A DNA stretch of 21,696 bases from a virus. The stretch lies in the IMG/VR virus record IMGVR_UViG_3300031785_001136, positions 1-21,696 of that record; one strand, given 5' to 3'. Below the pieces are notes generated by a model that was given only the letters and a program-made list of their open reading frames with translations, was not told the DNA's origin and did no database searches. Shown here piece after piece: positions 4,105 through 18,333 of this stretch (within the stretch, counting starts at the first letter, position 1; every line of letters begins with the position of its first letter). The translations under genes were made by a program, and so were the position numbers.

Positions 4105-4131
4105 CAAAAAAAGAAGGGGTACAACCCCTTC
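4105..4131 (-). terminator. Rho-independent terminator
   Basis: Read on the minus strand, a perfect 8-bp stem (GAAGGGGT pairing with ACCCCTTC, 4113-4120 with 4124-4131) with a three-base loop is followed by a run of seven T (4106-4112). It lies directly after the 28-aa ORF and before the 67-aa gene, closing the riboswitch/DUF4278 unit. Confidence 0.9.
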
Positions 4132-4134
4132 GTT

Positions 4135-4221
4135 TTATTTTCCATATAGAAACTTAACTTCAGCAGTTATGATTGTGAGAAAGATAGCAGACGCTATGCA
4201 TATCTCTAATGTTTCAATCAC
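4135..4221 (-). CDS. Possible 28-aa membrane peptide
   Basis: A 28-codon ORF reading M(GTG)IETLEICIASAIFLTI followed by ITAEVKFLYGK. The middle (about residues 6-20) is hydrophobic enough for one membrane span, flanked by an acidic N-terminus and a basic C-terminus. Its GTG overlaps the TGA of the DUF4278-like gene (GTGA), and its stop sits 3 nt before the terminator stem, so it fills the operon exactly. No independent ribosome-binding site is visible; coupled re-initiation would be needed. The short length makes it a candidate rather than a firm gene. Confidence 0.45.
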   Translation of the reverse strand: MIETLEICIASAIFLTIITAEVKFLYGK

Positions 4222-4343
4222 TTAAGACTTGTAAGTTCTTTTTCTGTTCTTACACCACGGTAAGTTAGATCGACCTTGTTAGTCTGCTTTGCTTTGTTTC
4301 TATCGGTGTCATACTTAACACCACGGTATGTGACTTGTGCCAT
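4218..4343 (-). CDS. DUF4278-like small protein downstream of riboswitch-like RNA
   Basis: A 41-aa peptide, MAQVTYRGVKYDTD... ending LTYRGVRTEKELTSLK. It holds two copies of a T-Y-R-G-V motif (residues 5-9 and 27-31), the hallmark I associate with the cyanobacterial DUF4278 family. A strong AGGAG (4351-4355) lies 7 nt before the ATG. Cyanobacterial small proteins controlled by nitrogen status, which act on nitrogen-assimilation enzymes or regulators, are commonly placed behind glutamine-sensing RNAs. The RNA motif just upstream makes a similar role plausible here, but that is inference. The duplicated motif also creates a short DNA repeat (ACACCACGGTA at 4252 and 4318 on the plus strand). Confidence 0.78.
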   Translation of the reverse strand: MAQVTYRGVKYDTDRNKAKQTNKVDLTYRGVRTEKELTSLK

Positions 4344-4344
4344 C

Positions 4345-4448
4345 GGTTTTCTCCTGTAGTAATAGGGATTTTTAGCCCCGTTCCTTCAGTCGGCATTTGC
4401 GTCCCCGTAGGGATGAACGAACCCGTTCCGTGTCGGCTTACTTGCGTC
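4345..4448 (-). promoter_or_regulatory. Glutamine-riboswitch-like (downstream-peptide/glnA motif) leader
   Basis: The minus-strand leader holds a compact fold resembling the glnA/downstream-peptide glutamine aptamers of cyanobacteria and cyanophages. Its outer helix CGTTC (4415-4419) pairs with GAACG (4379-4383). The inner hairpin is TCCC-TACG-GGGA (4402-4413) with a UNCG-type loop. GACGCAAATG follows, then GAAGGAACG, as in the family's conserved ends. Downstream are a possible GGGG...CCC hairpin (about 4364-4378) and the AGGAG of the DUF4278-like gene. A second partial copy of the 3' half (GACGCAA...GGAACG, 4424-4448) precedes it. Its GAACG can pair with the same CGTTC, giving an alternative hairpin at 4415-4428. 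The match is from memory of the consensus and was not computed. Confidence 0.62.
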
Positions 4449-4661
4449 TTATGGTTCAAAATCGCATTCTTCTTCTACTTTAGTTTTAAAGTAGTTTAAT
4501 AAATCTAACTTTGATCGTTCATCAAGATATTGATCTTGTCGAACCTCTGAAGCTAGATCTTTCCACCCATCACATTTAATAGTCCAATGGACTGGTTCAT
4601 GGTTAGCGAGTAGAAGTGGTAAAAAAATGCCCATAAGATGAACGTAAAGGTATGTTAGCAT
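4449..4661 (-). CDS. Small secreted or membrane-anchored hypothetical
   Basis: A 70-aa protein whose first 19 residues form a hydrophobic segment (MLTYLYVHLMGIFLPLLLA) followed by NHEPVHW, which looks like a signal peptide or membrane anchor. The remainder is charged, with Cys30 and Cys66, and ends EEECDFEP. I do not recognise a function, although small proteins of this design are common in cyanophages. The start is ambiguous. The ATG at 4661 has AGGG almost touching it, which is too close for an ideal site, while Met10 (4634) would still retain most of the hydrophobic stretch. Its stop codon directly abuts the riboswitch-like leader. Confidence 0.6.
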   Translation of the reverse strand: MLTYLYVHLMGIFLPLLLANHEPVHWTIKCDGWKDLASEVRQDQYLDERSKLDLLNYFKTKVEEECDFEP

Positions 4662-4756
4662 ACCCTAACTATTTAGTCAAGTAGTCTGTAGTTAAAGTTA
4701 CAGAAAACCCTACAGGTCAAAAATTTGGCGGGATTTTTTTTGCGATATTTTTGGAA
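4662..4756 (-). other. Intergenic spacer with inverted repeats
   Basis: On the minus strand, CTGTAG and CTACAG (about 4686-4715) form an outer inverted repeat, and CTGTAACTTTAACTACAG gives a competing inner one. TTGACT near 4675 has TAACAT 17 nt later, but that -10 would lie inside the start of the 70-aa gene. There is no clear terminator with a T-run on the minus strand. Late-motif similarity (CTAAATA) is weak. Confidence 0.3.
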
Positions 4757-9175: not shown

Positions 9176-9183
9176 TATTTATG
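9176..9183 (-). promoter_or_regulatory. Late promoter motif CATAAATA
   Basis: The minus strand reads CATAAATA, and the TAA inside it is the stop codon of the 930-aa fibre gene. It is about 60 nt from the ATG of the glycosyltransferase-methyltransferase fusion, further than at other genes here. Confidence 0.45.
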
Positions 9184-11971
9184 AATTAGTTTGATAGAAT
9201 CCATTACAGTAGAAAAAGTGTCCTGAAAATGTTTGAACTGCATATGTGACGTTTGAATCATTTCTAAAATATATGTCAGTTGAACCATTATGAGCAAACA
9301 CATAAATTACATCTGTATGATTATTGTCTGAAATACTAATATTACCACCCCATCCAGCATCAACTGTAAATGGTAAACCCTGAACTTTAAATGAACCAGA
9401 TCCACCAAGACCTGAAATTTGTAACGCCCAAAAAACTTTATTACCAATCTTTGTATACTGACCTGAATATGTGCCAGATCCTCCAGTTATAGTAGGTGTC
9501 CAAAGGCCCTCTTCATAATCATTTAAAGCGTTGGCGGTTGCGGTGTCTCCGTTGAATGTTATACCACCAGAGGATAAAATGCGAAGTTTTTCTGCAGTAT
9601 TATTTGTCCTAAAAGAAATATCATCACTTTGTATATTACGAATAACAGTTCCACCATATGCTGTGTGATGACCAAATAATGAACCATAACCGCTACCCTT
9701 ATTTGCACCAAAGTAACACATAGTCCCCGTTGACTCTGCAATTTGCACGGGAACATTATCATCAGTGAGAGGGGTCGTTTGAGATCCATTAGTCCTAAAC
9801 AAACTTCTACCACTACTGTCGATGCGAAGTCTTGCAGAACTTGTACCACCAGAAGTTCTGGTATAAAATCTGAGTTCACCATCATCTTTATTGGATGTAT
9901 CAGAACCAGCATGGAATAATATACTAGCAACTTTATTTGTGTCCCAAAATCCGTGCATTTCACCAAGACCATCATAAGCACTGGTACCTGTACCTCTGAA
10001 TGATAATCTACCACCAGAAGTATTACCATTAATCTGTATAGAACCATTAGTGGGATCTAATACAGTGCTGTAACCACCAGTCATAATCCTTCCACCACTG
10101 TCGATGCGAAGTCTTTCTTGCCCATTAGATGAGTAAAATGCTTGATAAGAAGTATGACCGTTACTATCTCCTATTACCTTCCATACATTTATATTATTAT
10201 TACCACCTCCACTTCTTACATTAAGTCCCCACTCATTACTAGTTCCTGTAGATCTACCTAACATCCACCAGTTACCAGAGGTAGTTGCGGCTGAGTGATC
10301 AAAAGGTTGGTTGAGGGTTGAATATTGTCCTACTAATCCTATATTGTTACTACTAAATAGAGCTGCATTATTATTATTATGAGGGTGAGAAGATCCACCA
10401 TAATTAATTATGTGTGTGCCTGAAGAACTGAATATAGATTGTGCATTACTGTCTATTCGATATGCTATCGTGTTAGATGCTGAAACTCTAAAAACTAAAC
10501 TACCAGAATTACTAGTTTGGTCAACATAAGAATATCCTGGTCTATCAAAAATTAATTGATTGTTTGTTAGTTGTGAATTTTGAGTTCCAGAAACATATAT
10601 TCCACCAGTAGTTAATGTGCTACCAGAAAAAGTTAAACCTGATTCACCCTGTATAGTATTCGATGTTCCAGTTGCGGTAAGAACGTAATTATTTACATTA
10701 CCGTTTATTGTTGCTAATGCTCCTTGTGCACCTGTGGAACCTGTTGCACCTTGAGATCCTGTAGATCCTGTAGCACCTTGAGCACCAGTTGGTCCTGTTG
10801 ATCCTGTTGATCCTGATGCACCCTGAGCACCAGCATTACCTTGTGCACCTGTAGGTCCTGTTGCACCCTGAGCACCTGTTGGTCCTGTAGCACCTTGAGA
10901 ACCTGTTGGTCCTGTAGCACCTTGAGCACCAGTATTACCAGTTGATCCTCCTGGACCTGTTGCACCAGCAGCACCTTGAGCACCTGTTGGTCCCATCGAA
11001 CCAACTTCAACCCACTGTGCGGATGGTGATCCAGATCCGTCATCATAGTAGATACTTAAATCTCCAGTATCACTTTCCCACCATAAATCTCCAACTGTAA
11101 CTCCACTTGAGGGAGCAGATGTGCTGATATGTGCCTGTGCACCTTGTAGTCCTTGATGACCCTGAGCACCTTGGGCACCTGTAGCACCAGTGTTTCCTTG
11201 ATGACCTTGAGCACCAGTTGGTCCTGTTCCACCAGCAGATCCAGATGAACCAGAAGCACCTTGTGCACCTTGAGCACCTGTAGCACCAGCGTCACCTGTT
11301 CTAGCAAAGGTGATAAATATATCTGCGGAGTTTGAGAATGAAGTAACACTACCTGATACATATGCACTTGTTACTTTGAAATATCCTGATGCTTCAGTTA
11401 ATGATGAAATTGTATATAAGACAAAATTATTTGGGTTAGACTGTAGTGATACTTTATAATGACCCTTAATTGTAGATGTTGAGTCATCTATTGTTCTTAA
11501 AAATGATTGTATATCTGTATTTGTGCTACCACCTTCCGTATCATCTATGTAGAGAACTGTCGCTGATGTGAGATTCGCATTATTAAATTTAAGCACCCCT
11601 GCACCAGGATCACTATCTGCTGTGTTTGTGCTAAATGCGTACTCGAAAGACGCTCCACCAAAAGTACCCTCTGAACCTTGAGCACCAGTTGAACCTGTTG
11701 CACCTTGAGCACCAGCAGCACCTTGAGCACCCGTGTTACCTGTTGCTCCCGTATTTCCAGTCGCACCTTGATAACCTTGAGCACCTTGTGCACCTTGAGC
11801 AGCAGTGGCACCCTGAGCACCAGCAGCACCTTGAGCACCTGCTAATCCTTGGGCACCTACAGCACTAGTTGTAACAACTCTAATCCAAGATGATCCATTC
11901 CATCTCCACTTGGTTTGATTCTCTTCGTGAAGATCATTTAATGATGGACTATTTGGAAAATTTAAAGCCAT
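9179..11971 (-). CDS. Collagen-like tail fibre/adhesin, 930 aa
   Basis: A large virion fibre or adhesin. Residues 1-32 are a small N-terminal module ([13 protein letters not shown]... [11 protein letters not shown]) shared with the two fibres encoded just upstream, probably for virion attachment. Three Gly-X-Y collagen-like blocks follow (about 39-103, 226-280, 324-418). Between them are a beta-rich insert (about 104-225) and a [20 protein letters not shown] module (294-313). The rest is beta-rich with recurring LRIDS-GGR or LRIDSSGR phrases, typical of trimeric shafts. It ends in a compact region ([20 protein letters not shown] onwards, about 812-930) that resembles phage receptor-binding tips. 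There are no chaperone/autocleavage motifs. It is expressed from the late motif at 11988-11995. Confidence 0.9.
10718..11002 (-). repeat. Collagen-coding repeat, third block of the 930-aa fibre
   Basis: Codes about 31 Gly-X-Y triplets with a strong GPT-GAQ-GAT nonapeptide period (27 bp). Confidence 0.8.
11132..11296 (-). repeat. Collagen-coding repeat, second block of the 930-aa fibre
   Basis: Codes about 18 Gly-X-Y triplets, mostly GAQ, GHQ and GAT. It is shorter and less regular than the other blocks. Confidence 0.75.
11663..11857 (-). repeat. Collagen-coding repeat, first block of the 930-aa fibre
   Basis: Codes about 21 Gly-X-Y triplets (GAQ, GAT, GNT), interrupted once by ATAAQG. Confidence 0.75.
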
Positions 11972-11987
11972 TATATACTTTTTGAAT

Positions 11988-11995
11988 TATTTATG
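11988..11995 (-). promoter_or_regulatory. Late promoter motif CATAAATA
   Basis: CATAAATA on the minus strand, 17 nt before the ATG of the 930-aa fibre gene. The stop codon of the 81-aa gene (TAA, 11991-11993) is embedded in it. Confidence 0.6.
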
Positions 11996-12236
11996 TTGCG
12001 ATTCCAATCACACCTTCCGCATACGCTGCTTCGATGATTGCTGTAGATCCAACTGCTGTTATTGCCTCTCCTTTATTAATCTTAAAATTTGTATAAAGAT
12101 TTTGAATTTCTTCTGTTGCAATTCTAGCACGATTTGTGAGTGCGTTCGTAATCCAATCTTTTTGATCCGTCATTACATACTGAAGTGCTTTGTATTCACC
12201 TGTGGTAATGCCGACTGTATAACTTGTATGTATCAT
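11991..12236 (-). CDS. Small fibre-cluster protein (81 aa)
   Basis: An 81-aa protein, MIHTSYTVGITTGEYKALQY..., with a helical middle (DWITNALTNRARIATEEIQN, about 27-46) and a hydrophobic Ala/Ile-rich end (STAIIEAAYAEGVIGIAT). Homologues with the YTVGITT-EYKALQYVMTDQ pattern recur beside fibre genes in cyanophages, as I recall. It is likely a structural accessory or fibre-associated protein, but no activity can be inferred. It sits between two collagen-like fibre genes with its own late motif 19 nt upstream. Confidence 0.75.
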   Translation of the reverse strand: MIHTSYTVGITTGEYKALQYVMTDQKDWITNALTNRARIATEEIQNLYTNFKINKGEAITAVGSTAIIEAAYAEGVIGIAT

Positions 12237-12254
12237 TTTAAAAAGTCTTTTGAT

Positions 12255-12262
12255 TATTTATC
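12255..12262 (-). promoter_or_regulatory. Late promoter motif GATAAATA
   Basis: GATAAATA on the minus strand, 19 nt before the ATG at 12236. The TAA stop of the 688-aa fibre gene (12258-12260) lies inside the motif. Confidence 0.6.
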
Positions 12263-14324
12263 CTACTAGGTGTCCACTAAATTTAAAATAATCTGAACCA
12301 CCATAAGCTTGAGCAGAATTATCATCGGGATCAAAATAAACTCTTGCAGTATCGTTTACATTCATATATTTGTAGTATGTGTATGATGCGTTTGCCCCAT
12401 ATTGATTAGCATAACCATTATTATTACGATCTATTCTTAAATGAGCATCATTTCCTGAACCAGTTTTAGAATTATTAATATGCAAGTAATATCTAAAAAC
12501 TGTGGCTGTATTATTAAATGCTATTGAAGATATGTGAAAAAGATATACCCCTGCAACTGATGCTGTAAATACACCATTGCTACTATTATAATCACTACCA
12601 ACATTAACATCAACAGAACCAAATACTACATAAGAATTAGATTGTACATGACTTCCATTCACTACCGCTTGGAAACAAGGTTGATTAGGCATTCTCACAC
12701 CACCATTTGTGGTATGAAGCACAATATTACCTGAATTAGATTGAATCCCTAAATCAGCACCACCACCTCCATTTGTACCACCAGATCCGATGAAACCGTG
12801 ACCAGTTCCATCACTATTAGTAAACAGTAGAGCTTTGTTAACAGAACCACGACATCTTATATACGCATCTCCGCTACCATTTTCTATATGAAGTAGTGTG
12901 CCAACATTTGTTGTTCCTCCAATAGAAAAATATCCATTTGCATCAATGCGAGTTCTTAAATCATATGAACTTCCATTATTATACCAAACATCATAATTAC
13001 TTCTTGTAGCAGAATCATTTCCAACAGCCCACTCAGTGCTATCATGTGTATTATCATATAATATAAAATTATCTCCTGTAGTTACTTTTAATCTTAAGAG
13101 ACCACCAGCAGAAGTGCTTGTAGTTCCAGCAACATGCAATGTATTTGATGGAGAACTTTCATTGATACCAATTTTATTATCACCAGTTGCAGTTAAAGGA
13201 CCATTAGTTATTCCACCAGATGTGGAAGGTCCAAAGTATATTTTATTTGCACTTGCGTCTCTTGCAAATACACCAATAAAATTATTTCCAGCAGCATTAG
13301 GAGTTAAAAAACCTCTGTAACCTGTAATTACTTGGTTCTGTGCATGGAATGAGCTTCCTGAAATTGCTGATACATCTACACATAATGCAACAGTTCCACT
13401 ATTACTATTTGGATTTCCAACCATTATGGACTTATAACTGTTGCTATACCCATAATTCTTTACTGCTAATGTTTGTAGAACATCTGATGAGAGTTTAATA
13501 TTGCCACTTGAGTCGATGCGAAGTCTTTCTGTCGCATTAGTATGCCCATTAGTTGATCCTGTAGCAAAACTCATGTACCCATTAGTACAACTAGTTGCTA
13601 GAACTAAACCATTTTGATCACCTGATAATAAACCGTGTCCAATTGAACTAACCTCTATTCCCCCATCTTGTTTGAATACTAATGTTGGGTTGTCTCCTTC
13701 GTCATTATTATCAGTATCTGCTTCTATGATTAACTTGGCATCACCACTTGCTCCTGATGAAACAGTTAGACTCGTGCCATCAAAAGTTAAGTTTGATTCG
13801 CCAACTAAATTAGTTCCACTACCACCAGTTATGACTCTATTATCTGCATTACTTGATATCGTTGCTGAACCTGAAGGTCCTGTGGGACCAGTTGATCCTG
13901 TAGCACCTTGTGCACCAGTTGGTCCTGTAGGTCCTGTTGAACCAGTAGCACCTTGAGCACCAGTAGAACCTCCTGAACCTGTAGCACCTTGAGCACCAGT
14001 TGATCCACCTGCACCTGTAGCTCCTTGAGCACCTGTTGCTCCTGTCGCACCTTGAGCACCTGTTGCTCCTGTCGCACCTTGAGCACCTTGAGCACCTGTT
14101 GGTCCTGTAGGTCCTGTAGGTCCTGTTGATCCATTATTTCCTGTCGCACCTTGAGCACCAGTTGCTCCTGTAGCACCTTGAGCACCAGTTGGTCCTGTAG
14201 CACCTTGAGCACCTGTGCTTGCAGATATTCTCTGCCAGATTTCTCCATTCCATTTAAATGAAACACCATTAGCGGTGTATGTATCATTCACACTAGGACT
14301 ATTTGGAAAATTAAAGGCAGCCAT
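12258..14324 (-). CDS. Collagen-like fibre with C1q-like head, 688 aa
   Basis: A trimeric fibre candidate. Residues 1-32 are the shared N-terminal module ([20 protein letters not shown] then [11 protein letters not shown]). Residues 37-153 are an uninterrupted Gly-X-Y stalk dominated by GPT, GAT and GAQ triplets. A long beta-rich middle follows, with [11 protein letters not shown]. The last 130-140 residues read as a C1q/TNF-type jelly roll. Their hallmarks are a strand [20 protein letters not shown], then [13 protein letters not shown], the YYLHINN strand, and the closing [10 protein letters not shown]1q heads on collagen stalks are well known in animals and in some bacterial spore and phage fibres. 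The phage role is probably receptor binding. Late motif at 14342-14349. Confidence 0.87.
13866..14216 (-). repeat. 27-bp-periodic collagen-coding repeat
   Basis: Codes the Gly-X-Y stalk of the 688-aa fibre. Units such as GPTGAQGAT recur, giving a 27-bp DNA period with synonymous variation between copies. Confidence 0.85.
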
Positions 14325-14341
14325 TATCTACTTTTTTTAGT

Positions 14342-14349
14342 TATTTATG
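14342..14349 (-). promoter_or_regulatory. Late promoter motif CATAAATA
   Basis: CATAAATA on the minus strand, 18 nt before the ATG of the 688-aa fibre gene, and containing the TAA stop of the 101-aa gene (14345-14347). The 27 nt at 14322-14348 are identical to 16748-16774. Confidence 0.65.
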
Positions 14350-14650
14350 TTGTCTTAATAGCGATCAAGTTTGTTTTCCACGCTGCCTTTACGCTATCTG
14401 TCCATACAGCGTTACATACAGCTTTGACTTCATCAACTATATCTGTTACTCCATCTGGTTCTTTTGTTAATGGATTCTCAACAAGATTATCTGATTCATC
14501 TAAAGTGCCTGGATCAAGAACAAATCTATTAAAAGATCTTGTGAGTTCTGTTCCATCTTTTTTGATGACTGTAGCTTTTCGGACCTGTACTAGTTTGTAC
14601 TGTCCAACTATTTCTATTTTGTCGTATTCTATTGATTCTGAAAGTGCCAT
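14345..14650 (-). CDS. Small fibre-cluster protein (101 aa)
   Basis: A 101-aa protein, MALSESIEYDKIEIVGQYKL..., with a beta-rich N-terminal half (VQVRKATVIKKDGTELTRSF) and a helical C-terminus (VKAVCNAVWTDSVKAAWKTN). I recall close relatives with VRxATVIKKDG and CNAVWTDSVKxAW in the fibre region of many T4-like cyanophages, and it is presumably a virion or fibre-assembly component. The function is unproven. A strong GGAGGA is 11 nt before the ATG, and a late motif lies at 14689-14696. Confidence 0.8.
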   Translation of the reverse strand: MALSESIEYDKIEIVGQYKLVQVRKATVIKKDGTELTRSFNRFVLDPGTLDESDNLVENPLTKEPDGVTDIVDEVKAVCNAVWTDSVKAAWKTNLIAIKTT

Positions 14651-14687
14651 TAGGGAAGTCCTCCGAACTAAACTGGTTTAGGCATTT

Positions 14688-15038
14688 TTATTTATTCTCA
14701 GAGGGAAGAGGTCTAGTCTCAGTATCTTTATTAAGATAATCAATACTGTTATTGATTTCATTTAAAATACTTGTCTTCTTACTATCCAAATTTGTCCATG
14801 ATGAAATATCAGAACTTGTGATAGTAGAAAATCCTATAAAATTGGATGATGCTGCATCAGTACAATTGAAAGACCCAGTAACTTGATGTGATAGCATTGA
14901 ACCACCATCATCAAATGATCCATCATATGTATAGTTAACAGTTTTGATTACGTCTGTTAAACTTCCTTCATCCTTCACCTCTACATCAGTGACTGTGAAT
15001 GTAAAATTTGTATTACTTGTTGTTGCTGTGCTTATCAT
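14688..15038 (-). CDS. Fibre-cluster hypothetical protein (116 aa)
   Basis: A hypothetical protein starting MISTATTSNTNFTFTVTDVE, rich in Thr/Ser and beta strands (VNYTYDGSFDDGGSMLSHQV), with LDSKKTSILNEINNSIDYLN near the end. I prefer the ATG at 15038. The longer reading starts with TTG at 15056, inside the preceding fibre gene, adding six residues. The ATG falls 3 nt after that gene's stop, a natural junction. No Shine-Dalgarno is clear for either start. Its position among fibre genes suggests a structural or fibre-accessory role, but I recognise no family. Confidence 0.7.
   Translation of the reverse strand: MISTATTSNTNFTFTVTDVEVKDEGSLTDVIKTVNYTYDGSFDDGGSMLSHQVTGSFNCTDAASSNFIGFSTITSSDISSWTNLDSKKTSILNEINNSIDYLNKDTETRPLPSENK
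14689..14696 (-). promoter_or_regulatory. Late promoter-like motif AATAAATA
   Basis: AATAAATA on the minus strand, about 39 nt before the ATG of the 101-aa gene. It overlaps the stop codon of the 116-aa gene (14688-14690). Confidence 0.5.
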
Positions 15039-15040
15039 AG

Positions 15041-16750
15041 TTAATTTGTTGGCCAAGGTGCTGTTGGTGGTGTAAAGTTTGCACCATTATATCGACAAAC
15101 ATGAGTCCATCTTACATTATCTACGTACATTTCCTGATGTTCATTTGTGTGATCAGTATTTCTTCCCATATAGCAATAGCTAGGATTACCACCCTGAAAA
15201 GTCATATTTGAATTTGTTGCTTTTAGGGTTCCATTCACATAAAGTCTAAAGTCATCAGCACTATCATCAAATTCCCATGCAACATGCATCCAAGCATTAT
15301 GAGTTAAACCACTATTTGTGTTTACACCAGTACCCTGACTTGAATAGAAATACATTGAAGTCACTGAGGAACCTGGACTATATCCTTTAAATGTTCCTCT
15401 ATTACTTTGACCATCAGCAGTTAATACATGATAATAACTTGTAGATGTATCTACAACTTTTACATAATATTCAAAAGTCCAATCAGTATTATCCAATCTG
15501 AAATCACTAAGATTACTCTGAATATTTAGATAATCACCTGAGTTTGAACTACATAGTCTCAATGTATGAGAATTACCAACTGGACTTGTATGATTTGTAC
15601 TCATTTGTGCGTTGCCATTAAGAGACAGTGTGTGTCTAGCAGCACCATCTGTTATTGATGAAGCACCCTCTATTAAAAGTTTAACATCACTCCAGTATGG
15701 ATCAATTCCTACGTCTGTATTTTTCCAATTAGTTCCATTATAAACTTTAATTCTTTTATCACTGGTATTAAAATACAACTGACCTGTTGAAGGACTACTT
15801 GGATTAGATGAAGCGGTTGGAAGAACGCTTGGACCACCTGCTCCTTGAGCACCTGTAGGACCAGTTGGTCCTGTCGATCCACCTGAACCAGTAGCACCTT
15901 GCGAACCAGTCGGTCCTGTAGGTCCTGTGGGTCCTGTTGGTCCTGTAGGTCCTGTGCTACCACCAGACCCCGTTGCACCTTGTGCTCCTGTTGAACCAGT
16001 TGCACCTTGAGCACCAGTTGATCCTCCTGAACCTGTCGCTCCCTGAGCACCAGTTGATCCTGTGGGTCCTGTAGATCCAGTTGCACCTTGAGCACCTGTC
16101 GATCCACCTGCACCTGTAGCACCTTGAGCACCAGTTGGTCCTGTTGATCCTGTTGCACCAGTAGCACCTTGAGCACCAACAGCACCTTGAGCACCAGTAG
16201 CACCAGTAGCACCCTGAGCACCAACAGCACCCTGAGCACCAACAGCACCTTGTGCTCCTGTAGCACCTGTCGCACCTTGAGCACCCTGTGCAGCGGTGGC
16301 TCCTTGAGCACCAGTAGGTCCTGCTGATCCTGTAGATCCTGTACCACCTTGAGCACCTGTTGCACCAGTTGCACCTTGAGCACCTTGAGCACCAGTAGCA
16401 CCTGTTGGTCCTGTTGCTCCTTGAGAACCTGTTGGTCCTATAGGTCCTGTGGATACCTCCACCCACTGATTACTATTACCATCGTTATAGTAAGCCGATA
16501 GTATACCAGAGTCAGAATCCCACCACAAATCACCAGCATCAGGACTACCAGGTGCACCAGTGGACATAGTTAAACCTGCATCATCTCCCTGAGCACCAGC
16601 AGCACCTTGAGCACCTGTCGCTCCTGTGGGTCCTTGTGCACCAGTTGCACTTACCCTTTTCCAAACAGTTCCATCCCACTTGAATGAAACGCCATTCTCG
16701 GTATGAACATCATTAGTATTTGGACTATTTGGAAAATCGAACGCAGCCAT
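15041..16750 (-). CDS. Collagen-like fibre with LamG-like lectin head, 569 aa
   Basis: A fibre/adhesin with the shared N-terminal module ([20 protein letters not shown] then [14 protein letters not shown], 1-34). There is a short Gly-X-Y patch (36-55), a [19 protein letters not shown] module (73-91), a long Gly-X-Y stalk (101-305), and a [20 protein letters not shown] linker. The C-terminal domain (about 351-569) looks like a laminin-G/concanavalin-like jelly roll. It has [14 protein letters not shown], then [20 protein letters not shown] followed by GTLKAT, and ends [20 protein letters not shown]. LamG heads commonly bind sugars, so host-surface glycan binding is inferred. It is expressed from the late motif at 16768-16775. 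Confidence 0.88.
15836..16450 (-). repeat. Long collagen-coding repeat of the 569-aa fibre
   Basis: The longest Gly-X-Y tract in the window, about 68 triplets (residues 101-305), including a run of consecutive GPT triplets. Nonapeptide periodicity gives 27-bp tandem similarity. Confidence 0.85.
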
Positions 16751-16767
16751 TATCTACTTTTTTTAGT

Positions 16768-16775
16768 TATTTATC
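16768..16775 (-). promoter_or_regulatory. Late promoter motif GATAAATA
   Basis: GATAAATA on the minus strand, 18 nt before the ATG at 16750, with a leader identical to that of the 688-aa fibre gene. Confidence 0.65.
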
Positions 16776-16788
16776 ATAAGAAATTTAA

Positions 16789-18333
16789 TTACCTTCTTAC
16801 ACCATGATAATAATCCACACTAGAAAATCTAGATGCAACAGAGACACCCTCTACCCAACCACCAGCAAAAGATGAAACATTTGCAGTGCTACTAAATTCA
16901 ACTCTTATCACATAATTAGTTCCTGATACTGAACTTATGTTCACATCACAATGACTTGCTGCTTCAGAATGTTGTTCTACAACAGTTTTTGTAACGTTTT
17001 GAGAACCACCACCATTATATCTGTTTACACCAAAAATAATTTTGTTAGGTCGAGTATGTGCGTCTGAAACTGCTTGAAGACGAGTAAAATAAGTAACCTC
17101 AAAACCTGCTTGATGGAAGTTTTCATCAATATCAATATCTACAATGGTTTTATTTGTAGCGTTACCTGAGACCGAGTTTTTATTCACACTAAAATAATGT
17201 TTGAAAGCTTGAATATTGGTACCACTTTCATTACGAATTTGAAATTGGGGATCGTTTTCTCCACCAGCATTTATAGATCCAGCAACAGTTAAAGCATCTG
17301 TTGCTGTAGTTGTTGCTATACCTACGTTACTTGTTGTATTAATACCTGTGCTATTTGACTGCCAGACTGTGAGACTACTAAGAACACCAGCATTTGCATC
17401 TACCCACTGATTACTATCACCATCATTGTAGTATATTTTTAATTGACCAGTATCACTCTCCCACCATAAATCTCCAGCGTTTGGACTTGATGGTGCATTA
17501 TCCGATATTGTGACTGTCTCTGAACCACCAGATGTTTCTACCCACTGGTTACTATCAGTATCAGAGTAGTAAATAAAGAGTTCACCAACATCACTATCCC
17601 ACCACAAATCACCACCACTTGGACTACCTGGTGGATTACTGCTTACGGAGACACTCGCTCCACCGCCACCGCCACCTGATGCACCTTGAGCACCTTGAGC
17701 ACCTTGAGCACCAGTTGGTCCTGATCCACCGCCACCGCCACCAGCAGCACCTTGAGCACCCTGAGCACCAGTTGGTCCTGAAGCACCCTGATATCCTTGA
17801 GAACCTTGAGCACCTGCTCCAGCAGCACCTTGAGCACCCACAGCACCTTGTGCACCAGTAGCTCCAGAAGGTCCTGTGGGTCCTGAACCAGCAGTAACTG
17901 TAATTGTTTTCTCTGCACCATTACCTGTTGCAGCAACACCATTTCCTACAAAATTTAAAGTTGTTGCCTGTGTTGATAGGGCAGATCCCTCATCCTTAAC
18001 AGTAACACCTGATGTAAATGCAGCACCGTCTTGAGTTAGATTTCCTGTAAAGTTTATATTACCGCCAACGTCTAGGTGATATTGGGCAACTGTAGTTCCT
18101 ATCCCAACTTTACCTGATGTAAAAGATATATTGTATGCTGTTGTTCCTACACCCACATTCCAAGGGTTTACACGAACAACTGTATTACCAACACCTGCTG
18201 CACCCTGATCCTGCTCAAGGTATAACTTACCGTCGTATGTATTAATTGCTAATTCGCCTAACTCCAGTTGAGTTATAGTCGGCACTTTATTAGGAGTCGA
18301 AGATCTCCTAATCCTAATTTTCGGATCAGACAT
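16789..18333 (-). CDS. Collagen-like fibre/structural protein, 514 aa
   Basis: The first fibre gene of the cluster and the one with a different N-terminus: MSDPKIRIRRSSTPNKVPTI then TQLELGELAINTYDGKLYLE (1-40). This resembles the baseplate- or hub-attaching leader seen in cyanophage and tropism-determinant fibres. A repetitive beta section (VGVGTTAYNISFTSGKVGIG) leads into a Gly-X-Y stalk (about 151-226) broken by two Gly-rich hinges. Two tandem GDLWW-SD-G modules follow (about 241-268 and 287-313). The C-terminal 190 residues form an unassigned beta domain ending VDYYHGVRR. I infer a virion role from context. Upstream is an 18-bp palindrome between two late-like motifs. Confidence 0.85.
   Translation of the reverse strand: MSDPKIRIRRSSTPNKVPTITQLELGELAINTYDGKLYLEQDQGAAGVGNTVVRVNPWNVGVGTTAYNISFTSGKVGIGTTVAQYHLDVGGNINFTGNLTQDGAAFTSGVTVKDEGSALSTQATTLNFVGNGVAATGNGAEKTITVTAGSGPTGPSGATGAQGAVGAQGAAGAGAQGSQGYQGASGPTGAQGAQGAAGGGGGGSGPTGAQGAQGAQGASGGGGGGASVSVSSNPPGSPSGGDLWWDSDVGELFIYYSDTDSNQWVETSGGSETVTISDNAPSSPNAGDLWWESDTGQLKIYYNDGDSNQWVDANAGVLSSLTVWQSNSTGINTTSNVGIATTTATDALTVAGSINAGGENDPQFQIRNESGTNIQAFKHYFSVNKNSVSGNATNKTIVDIDIDENFHQAGFEVTYFTRLQAVSDAHTRPNKIIFGVNRYNGGGSQNVTKTVVEQHSEAASHCDVNISSVSGTNYVIRVEFSSTANVSSFAGGWVEGVSVASRFSSVDYYHGVRR
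17656..17883 (-). repeat. Collagen-coding repeat of the 514-aa fibre
   Basis: Codes Gly-X-Y triplets (GAQ, GAV, GPT) broken by two poly-glycine runs (GGGGGGS and GGGGGGA), giving GC-rich stretches in otherwise AT-rich DNA. Confidence 0.8.

Follow-up and report, generated by a model that had tools for sequence, protein, structure and literature searches.

A complete small gene within the P2 loop of a glutamine-type aptamer in cyanophage genomes

Organization of the locus

The DNA analyzed here, referred to as the window, is the whole stretch of 21,696 nucleotides (positions 1-21696), and a reading of its translations identifies it as a fragment of a T4-like cyanophage. On the same reading it carries a psbA-like ORF (21694-21230) and ORFs resembling transaldolase (19461-18778), glutaredoxin (6186-5950), thyX (3535-2903) and PhoH (2166-1417). 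The region 9179-18333 holds four long tandem ORFs with collagen-like G-x-y repeats (GATGAQG), which presumably encode adhesins or tail fibres, together with overlapping ORFs on both strands that are born of the repeats.

The locus of interest lies on the minus strand. The original prediction had placed it at 4135-4448, and its elements were indeed found at or beside those positions, but the unit really begins at about 4680, so that a promoter, the first half of an aptamer and a gene had been left out. The features, with the basis of each, are as follows.

4652-4680, minus strand: sigma-70-like promoter, TTGACT-17-TAACAT (consensus match only)
4640-4644, minus strand: P1 5' strand of aptamer 1, CGUUC (sequence and folding)
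4631-4638, minus strand: P2 5' arm of aptamer 1, UCUUAUGG, holding the AUG at 4634-4632 (pairing and covariation)
4449-4634, minus strand: ORF-A, 61 aa, inside the P2 loop, PHROG 6471 (pN/pS and AlphaFold model)
4447-4454, minus strand: P2 3' arm of aptamer 1, CCAUAAGA, holding the stop codon UAA at 4451-4449 (pairing)
4424-4446, minus strand: 3' core of aptamer 1, CGCAAGTAAGCCGACAC, and GGAACG (sequence and relatives)
4424-4428, minus strand: P1 3' strand of aptamer 1, GAACG (sequence and folding)
4415-4428, minus strand: alternative linker hairpin, GAACG-GGUU-CGUUC (folding; predicted probability 0.59-0.78 without ligand)
4379-4419, minus strand: aptamer 2, a small-loop glutamine aptamer with P2 UCCC-UACG-GGGA (cmscan and pattern search)
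4351-4355, minus strand: ribosome-binding site AGGAG of the DUF4278 peptide (sequence)
4218-4343, minus strand: 41-aa DUF4278 peptide, PHROG 5049 (Pfam and PHROG match)
4135-4221, minus strand: 28-aa membrane peptide, MIETLEICIASAIFLTIITAEVKFLYGK, with a GTGA overlap (conserved in relatives)
4113-4131, minus strand: intrinsic terminator, an 8-bp stem followed by Ts (sequence)

The downstream part of the locus was described correctly in the original prediction. The 41-aa peptide, which had been called DUF4278-like, matches PF14105 with 29.4 bits against a Pfam gathering cut-off of 25.3, and contains the two proposed copies of TYRGV; the strong ribosome-binding site is an AGGAG located 7 nt ahead of its ATG. 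Dozens of relatives retain the possible 28-aa membrane peptide, again joined by a GTGA/ATGA overlap, and the expected terminator has an 8-bp stem and Ts at 4131-4113. In four freshwater-type contigs (L256, L265, L286 and L292) a second YRG-type peptide (MTATYRGVKYNTHT...) replaces the 28-aa peptide, and in other phages short lysine-rich peptides stand in its place; such replacements mostly keep a 4-nt overlap.

The leader proposed for this peptide is also real. The minus strand at 4419-4379 reads CGUUCA-UCCC-UACG-GGGA-CGCAA...GGAACG, so that P1, P2 and the conserved core are all present in order, and the inner hairpin carries the UNCG-type cap that had been noticed (UCCC-UACG-GGGA). The pattern CGTTCATCC..GGACGCAA..GGAACG occurs once in the window, at this position, where 0.00 occurrences are expected in shuffled sequence. 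In the covariance-model check proposed with the prediction, local cmscan gave 32.2 bits (E 1.5e-5) with RF01739 and 21.1 bits with RF01704; both scores stay below the gathering scores of 35 and 33, the former by 2.8 bits. In an RF01739 search limited to this record the E-value of aptamer 2 was 3.7e-7. Because aptamer 2 scores under both cut-offs, the Rfam scan of the whole window lists nothing. Its orthologue in P-TIM68 clears RF01739 (35.4 versus 35 bits), and the first, small-loop unit of P-RSM6 clears RF01704 (33.1 versus 33 bits). The reading as a glutamine riboswitch followed by a DUF4278 peptide is well supported, and the phage may in this way control host nitrogen metabolism.

The locus is, however, not the self-contained unit it had been taken for, since aptamer 2 belongs to an obligate tandem pair and its upstream partner encloses a gene. 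Homology to other phage genomes starts upstream of aptamer 2, exactly at GACGCAAGTAAGCCGACACGGAACG (4448-4424), and IMG/VR contigs reveal this 25-nt element as the 3' half of another aptamer. This aptamer 1 (4644-4424, minus strand) lies directly upstream of aptamer 2, and the loop of its P2 hairpin is a complete gene of 61 codons, ORF-A. The insert opens with UCUUAUGGGC (AUG at 4634) and closes with CCAUAAGA, which is followed by CGCAAG. The 8-nt flanks of ORF-A at its start and stop are perfect complements and form a P2 of 8 bp, in register with the P2 of Rfam RF01739, between CGUUCA and the core.

The predicted transcription start, at about 4645, falls on the first base of aptamer 1, and among the relatives' chains that have TTGAC this motif begins 36-38 nt ahead of CGTTCA in 99 of 117. 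A literature search on promoter early stem-loops in cyanophages returned nothing relevant. ORF-A starts 10 nt past the predicted transcription start, and the resulting leader of about 10 nt is too short for any leader riboswitch. In unit 1 the gene does not follow an aptamer in its 5' UTR but lies within the aptamer itself.

Pairing, coding capacity and distribution of gene-wrapped units

Comparison of relatives shows that the flanks of the in-loop genes pair and covary as P2. The arms change together in other units, as in UCUAUGG/CCAUAGA, UCCUCA/UGAGGA, UCUCCA/UGGAGA, UCCCUA/UAGGGA, UCACUAU/AUAGUGA and, with a GUG start, UCAUCGUG versus UACGAUGA. The covariation score of the start/stop stem was 0.350, compared with 0.125 ± 0.016 after shuffling (0/500) and at most 0.143 in slid versions. 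Since these shuffles leave relatedness in, we also calculated a cluster-level value with one unit per ORF cluster, from a source scan that had fixed P2 only at its closing GA. Over 43 ORF clusters, Watson-Crick pairs at positions 3-7 summed to 3.33 of 5, versus 1.94 ± 0.15 with swapped arms (0/5000), and sliding the register by one base lowered the sum to about 1.4. The mean energy of the arm duplex was -8.75 kcal/mol, versus -3.04 ± 0.37 with swapped arms. In full units without ligand, the predicted P2 probability had a mean of 0.80 and a median of 0.96, and fell to 0.20 with a foreign 5' arm. In two predictive scans, the 3' arm was prescribed as CATAGA or ATGA, and nearly all true hits carried TCTATG or TCAT as their 5' arm. 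In some units the P2 arms are short or contain mismatches. The P1 strands of unit 1 are complementary and invariant in all 45 units of the covariation set, and this invariance means that P1 gives no covariation support.

The in-loop ORFs are genes under selection. In an aptamer-blind search, the motif L[IL][DN]Y[FL]x[TS]KV in the protein was the sole criterion for collecting relatives of ORF-A (425 contigs, 80 kept), and both aptamer halves surrounded the ORF in 77 of the 80; among the other three, one unit runs off the end of its contig, and two identical sequences lack the aptamer halves. In both in-loop families the pN/pS was 0.23 (close pairs, arms excluded), indicating purifying selection; for ORF-B this close-pair value replaces a first dN/dS estimate of 0.74, which was saturated. 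ORF-A and ORF-B match PHROG 6471 and PHROG 504, both of unknown function, and the in-loop ORFs are annotated as hypothetical in P-HM1, P-HM2, P-SSM7, S-SSM7, P-RSM6, S-SSM4, S-SKS1, S-TIM54 and ACG-2014b. The AlphaFold model of ORF-A (pLDDT 84.5) combines a hydrophobic N-terminus with a hairpin of two helices bearing two invariant cysteines, and a fold search with it against the PDB gave no significant match. The in-loop stop codon lies within P2, shortly ahead of it, or in the core at a few fixed offsets. Across units, identical core nucleotides are translated in each of the three frames. The core is therefore conserved as RNA, and not as peptide.

The 25-nt element occurs in at least 120 IMG/VR contigs. 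The CGTTCA 5' half stands at one of two distances upstream: a few nucleotides, which gives an ordinary hairpin, or 120-240 nt, the space then being filled by a complete ORF. In the initial set of units, the gap was below 40 nt in about 110 and 120-225 nt in 127, with none intermediate. Gene-wrapped units are present in hundreds of marine and freshwater cyanophage contigs, with two small-protein families in the loops, and in isolates including P-HM2, P-SSM7 and S-SSM7. The loop types are interchangeable and the units stand in tandem: chains of two comprised 82 hairpin-gene, 61 gene-gene, 51 gene-hairpin (the type of the window) and 20 hairpin-hairpin pairs (single units, which may include ones truncated at contig ends, were also counted), and after 109 of 110 gene-bearing first units the next CGTTCA follows within a few bases, usually 3-5.

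Several individual units deserve description. A variant wrapped unit (L020:2050-2320) has a Shine-Dalgarno sequence in its 5' arm (CGTTCATCCTAGGAGGTTTTTATG ... CATAGGACGCG), and its P2 would hide this sequence instead of the AUG. At L249:2960-3250 the in-loop ORF begins with GTG and its P2 has 10 bp (TCATCGTG ... TACGATGA); in the hairpin unit upstream, the pair that closes P2 is inverted to A-U (CGTTCA-ACCTC..GAGGT-CGCAAG). P-RSM6 carries, a few hundred bases past its glutamine units and just upstream of the transaldolase gene, a manA RNA (L372:1938-2123; RF01745, 188 bits).

Rfam does not see the wrapped units. Unit 1 of the window gave only a chance hit and no match to RF01704, and P-HM1 and P-HM2, which have two wrapped units each and no small-loop unit, gave no glutamine riboswitch match with the Rfam models at E 0.1. 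Presumably the models cannot bridge an insert of this kind, and as a result earlier annotation found the small-loop copies only.

We also analyzed the hosts. Among 151 Cyanobiaceae genomes, ordinary glutamine riboswitches are present (RF01704 in 92, RF01739 in 53), and the pattern GACGGAA..AAGGAACGC was absent from all 151. In the 30 type 2 host copies examined there was no gene in P2, and the spacing from CGUUCA to the core was 14-20 nt in 30/30. A loose pattern scan of genome contigs gave hits that were nearly all due to chance; the single true one, L225 (CABZLA010000036.1), is a phage contig that carries two wrapped units and is filed under the GTDB genome of the Prochlorococcus single cell AG-337-J18, which was probably an infected cell. 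The phage-type element was thus found in cellular genomes only on a phage contig within a Prochlorococcus single-cell assembly.

A proposed switch and its alternatives

We propose that the locus yields one early phage transcript with two head-to-tail glutamine-type aptamers, in which the start and stop flanks of the in-loop gene are the strands of P2; we give this reading a probability of about 0.6. The mRNA of ORF-A is most likely near-leaderless, with its own start and stop regions completing the sensor. Aptamer 2, with its ordinary short loop, would lead the DUF4278 peptide, and aptamer 1 would have no leader role. If the wrapped aptamer still binds L-glutamine, its folding would hide the AUG in P2 and stop re-initiation on ORF-A, and when ORF-A is translated the terminating ribosome would cover the core and the P1 3' strand and keep the aptamer open.

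Folding predictions suggest how the two units could be coupled. The linker hairpin joins the P1 3' strand of aptamer 1 to the P1 5' strand of aptamer 2 and excludes both P1 helices. In the predicted ligand-free optimum of the window transcript, P2 is kept and this hairpin takes one strand from each P1, which explains the predicted probability of only 0.06 for the P1 of unit 1 without ligand; the state with both aptamers closed is predicted to lie 5.3 kcal/mol higher, ligand energy excluded. Glutamine binding could therefore shift both units together. If glutamine broke the linker hairpin, the P1 helices of the two aptamers could form; the DUF4278 peptide would then be switched on and ORF-A off. 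The in-loop protein may thus be favoured at low glutamine and the DUF4278 peptide at high glutamine.

Type 2 glutamine riboswitches of picocyanobacteria control DUF4278 peptides and are switched on by glutamine (PMC6316151). If the phage units behave likewise, glutamine would promote the DUF4278 peptide and close the in-loop AUG. IF17, the factor that inactivates glutamine synthetase, has DUF4278 as its N-terminal part (PMC6316151), and the phage peptide is likely aimed at this enzyme. P2 pairing, its covariation and the coding selection are computational findings; glutamine dependence, the direction of control and its reciprocity are what we infer from these comparisons. In the window, P2 has a predicted probability of 0.96-0.997 without ligand (RNAfold) and is nearly closed. 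A simple glutamine-dependent opening of P2 is thus not obvious, and expression of the inner gene may need ribosomes to load before the 3' half has been transcribed. In the full regulatory scheme, the aptamer would incorporate the gene it regulates, one aptamer would control two genes in opposite directions, with glutamine turning the in-loop gene off and the DUF4278 peptide on, and ribosomes on the inner gene would oppose the sensor physically. We offer this scheme as a tentative model that is somewhat less likely than not to hold.

The same stability of P2 without ligand, and the coincidence of the predicted transcription start with the P1 5' strand, could also mean that the wrapped structure is real and yet no ligand switch. 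P1 and P2 would then tie the 5' end of the mRNA to its 3' end; a near-leaderless mRNA would thereby be shielded from decay that depends on its 5' end, and only nascent transcripts would be translated. Tying the ends needs no core, however, whereas core nucleotides outside the helices are kept in 77/80 of the blindly found units and match those of recognized small-loop aptamers, and nearly every unit is in tandem with another glutamine-type aptamer. We consider this explanation unlikely.

Less probable still is that the inverted flanks are DNA-level exchange sites, resembling either integron attC sites or the shuffling cassettes known from T4-type phages, that swap small genes. Interchangeability among hairpin, ORF-A and ORF-B loops would fit such sites, and the repeated GGAACG-CGTTCA junctions permit homologous exchange. 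However, exchange sites should be alike, whereas the arms vary between units and remain complementary within each unit; moreover, their register is that of the aptamer P2, the cores match the RNA family, and no recombinase ORF is evident beside the unit in the window. Exchange may occur as a by-product of the repeats. Finally, although Rfam detects only the second unit in the window, the notion that aptamer 2 alone works and that aptamer 1 has decayed and is broken up by a gene is hardly credible and was rejected because of the strong covariation, to which the full conservation of P1 and core in wrapped units and the two wrapped units of P-HM1 and P-HM2, which lack a small-loop unit, can be added.

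Relation to known systems

Riboswitches are taught as leader elements that stand ahead of a gene. The arrangement proposed here implies that, in a compact genome, even an mRNA with almost no leader can carry a ligand sensor, and it links small phage proteins to glutamine, a nitrogen signal of the host. The wrapped architecture also explains why covariance-model scans missed these units.

The units share with type 1 glutamine riboswitches (glnA motif, RF01739) the P1 CGUUC/GAACG, the register of P2, the GACGSAA core and the occurrence in tandem copies, which has been described for glutamine riboswitches (PMC2864571). They differ in that the phage core is CGCAA instead of CGGAA, and in that the P2 of unit 1 is capped by a whole gene. 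With type 2 (Downstream-peptide, RF01704) they share the CGCA core, and the picocyanobacterial copies likewise precede DUF4278 peptides, but the host copies examined have 14-20 nt in place of the insert, never a gene. Canonical glutamine riboswitches have already been reported in phages (PMC9964418, PMC9004378), and the leader alone is therefore not new. Those of S-CREM1 (glnA) and of Melnitz, Mosig and AG-345-P14 have the same small-loop aptamer in marine phages, but no gene within the aptamer was described (PMC9964418, PMC9004378). In our analysis, S-CREM1 and S-PM2 contained small-loop units only. Group I introns provide another case of a protein ORF in a peripheral loop of a functional RNA, with the start region sometimes located in a stem. 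Unlike the units described here, they are splicing ribozymes with no ligand aptamer, and their ORF is not bounded by a stem made of its own start and stop codons. For a gene enclosed in an aptamer with its start and stop flanks as P2, we found no description in the open-access literature, a scope outside which Klähn 2018 and Ames & Breaker 2011 fall. It was thus already known that glutamine riboswitches occur in tandem, target DUF4278 genes and are found in phages, and what appears to be new is the gene wrapped within the aptamer.
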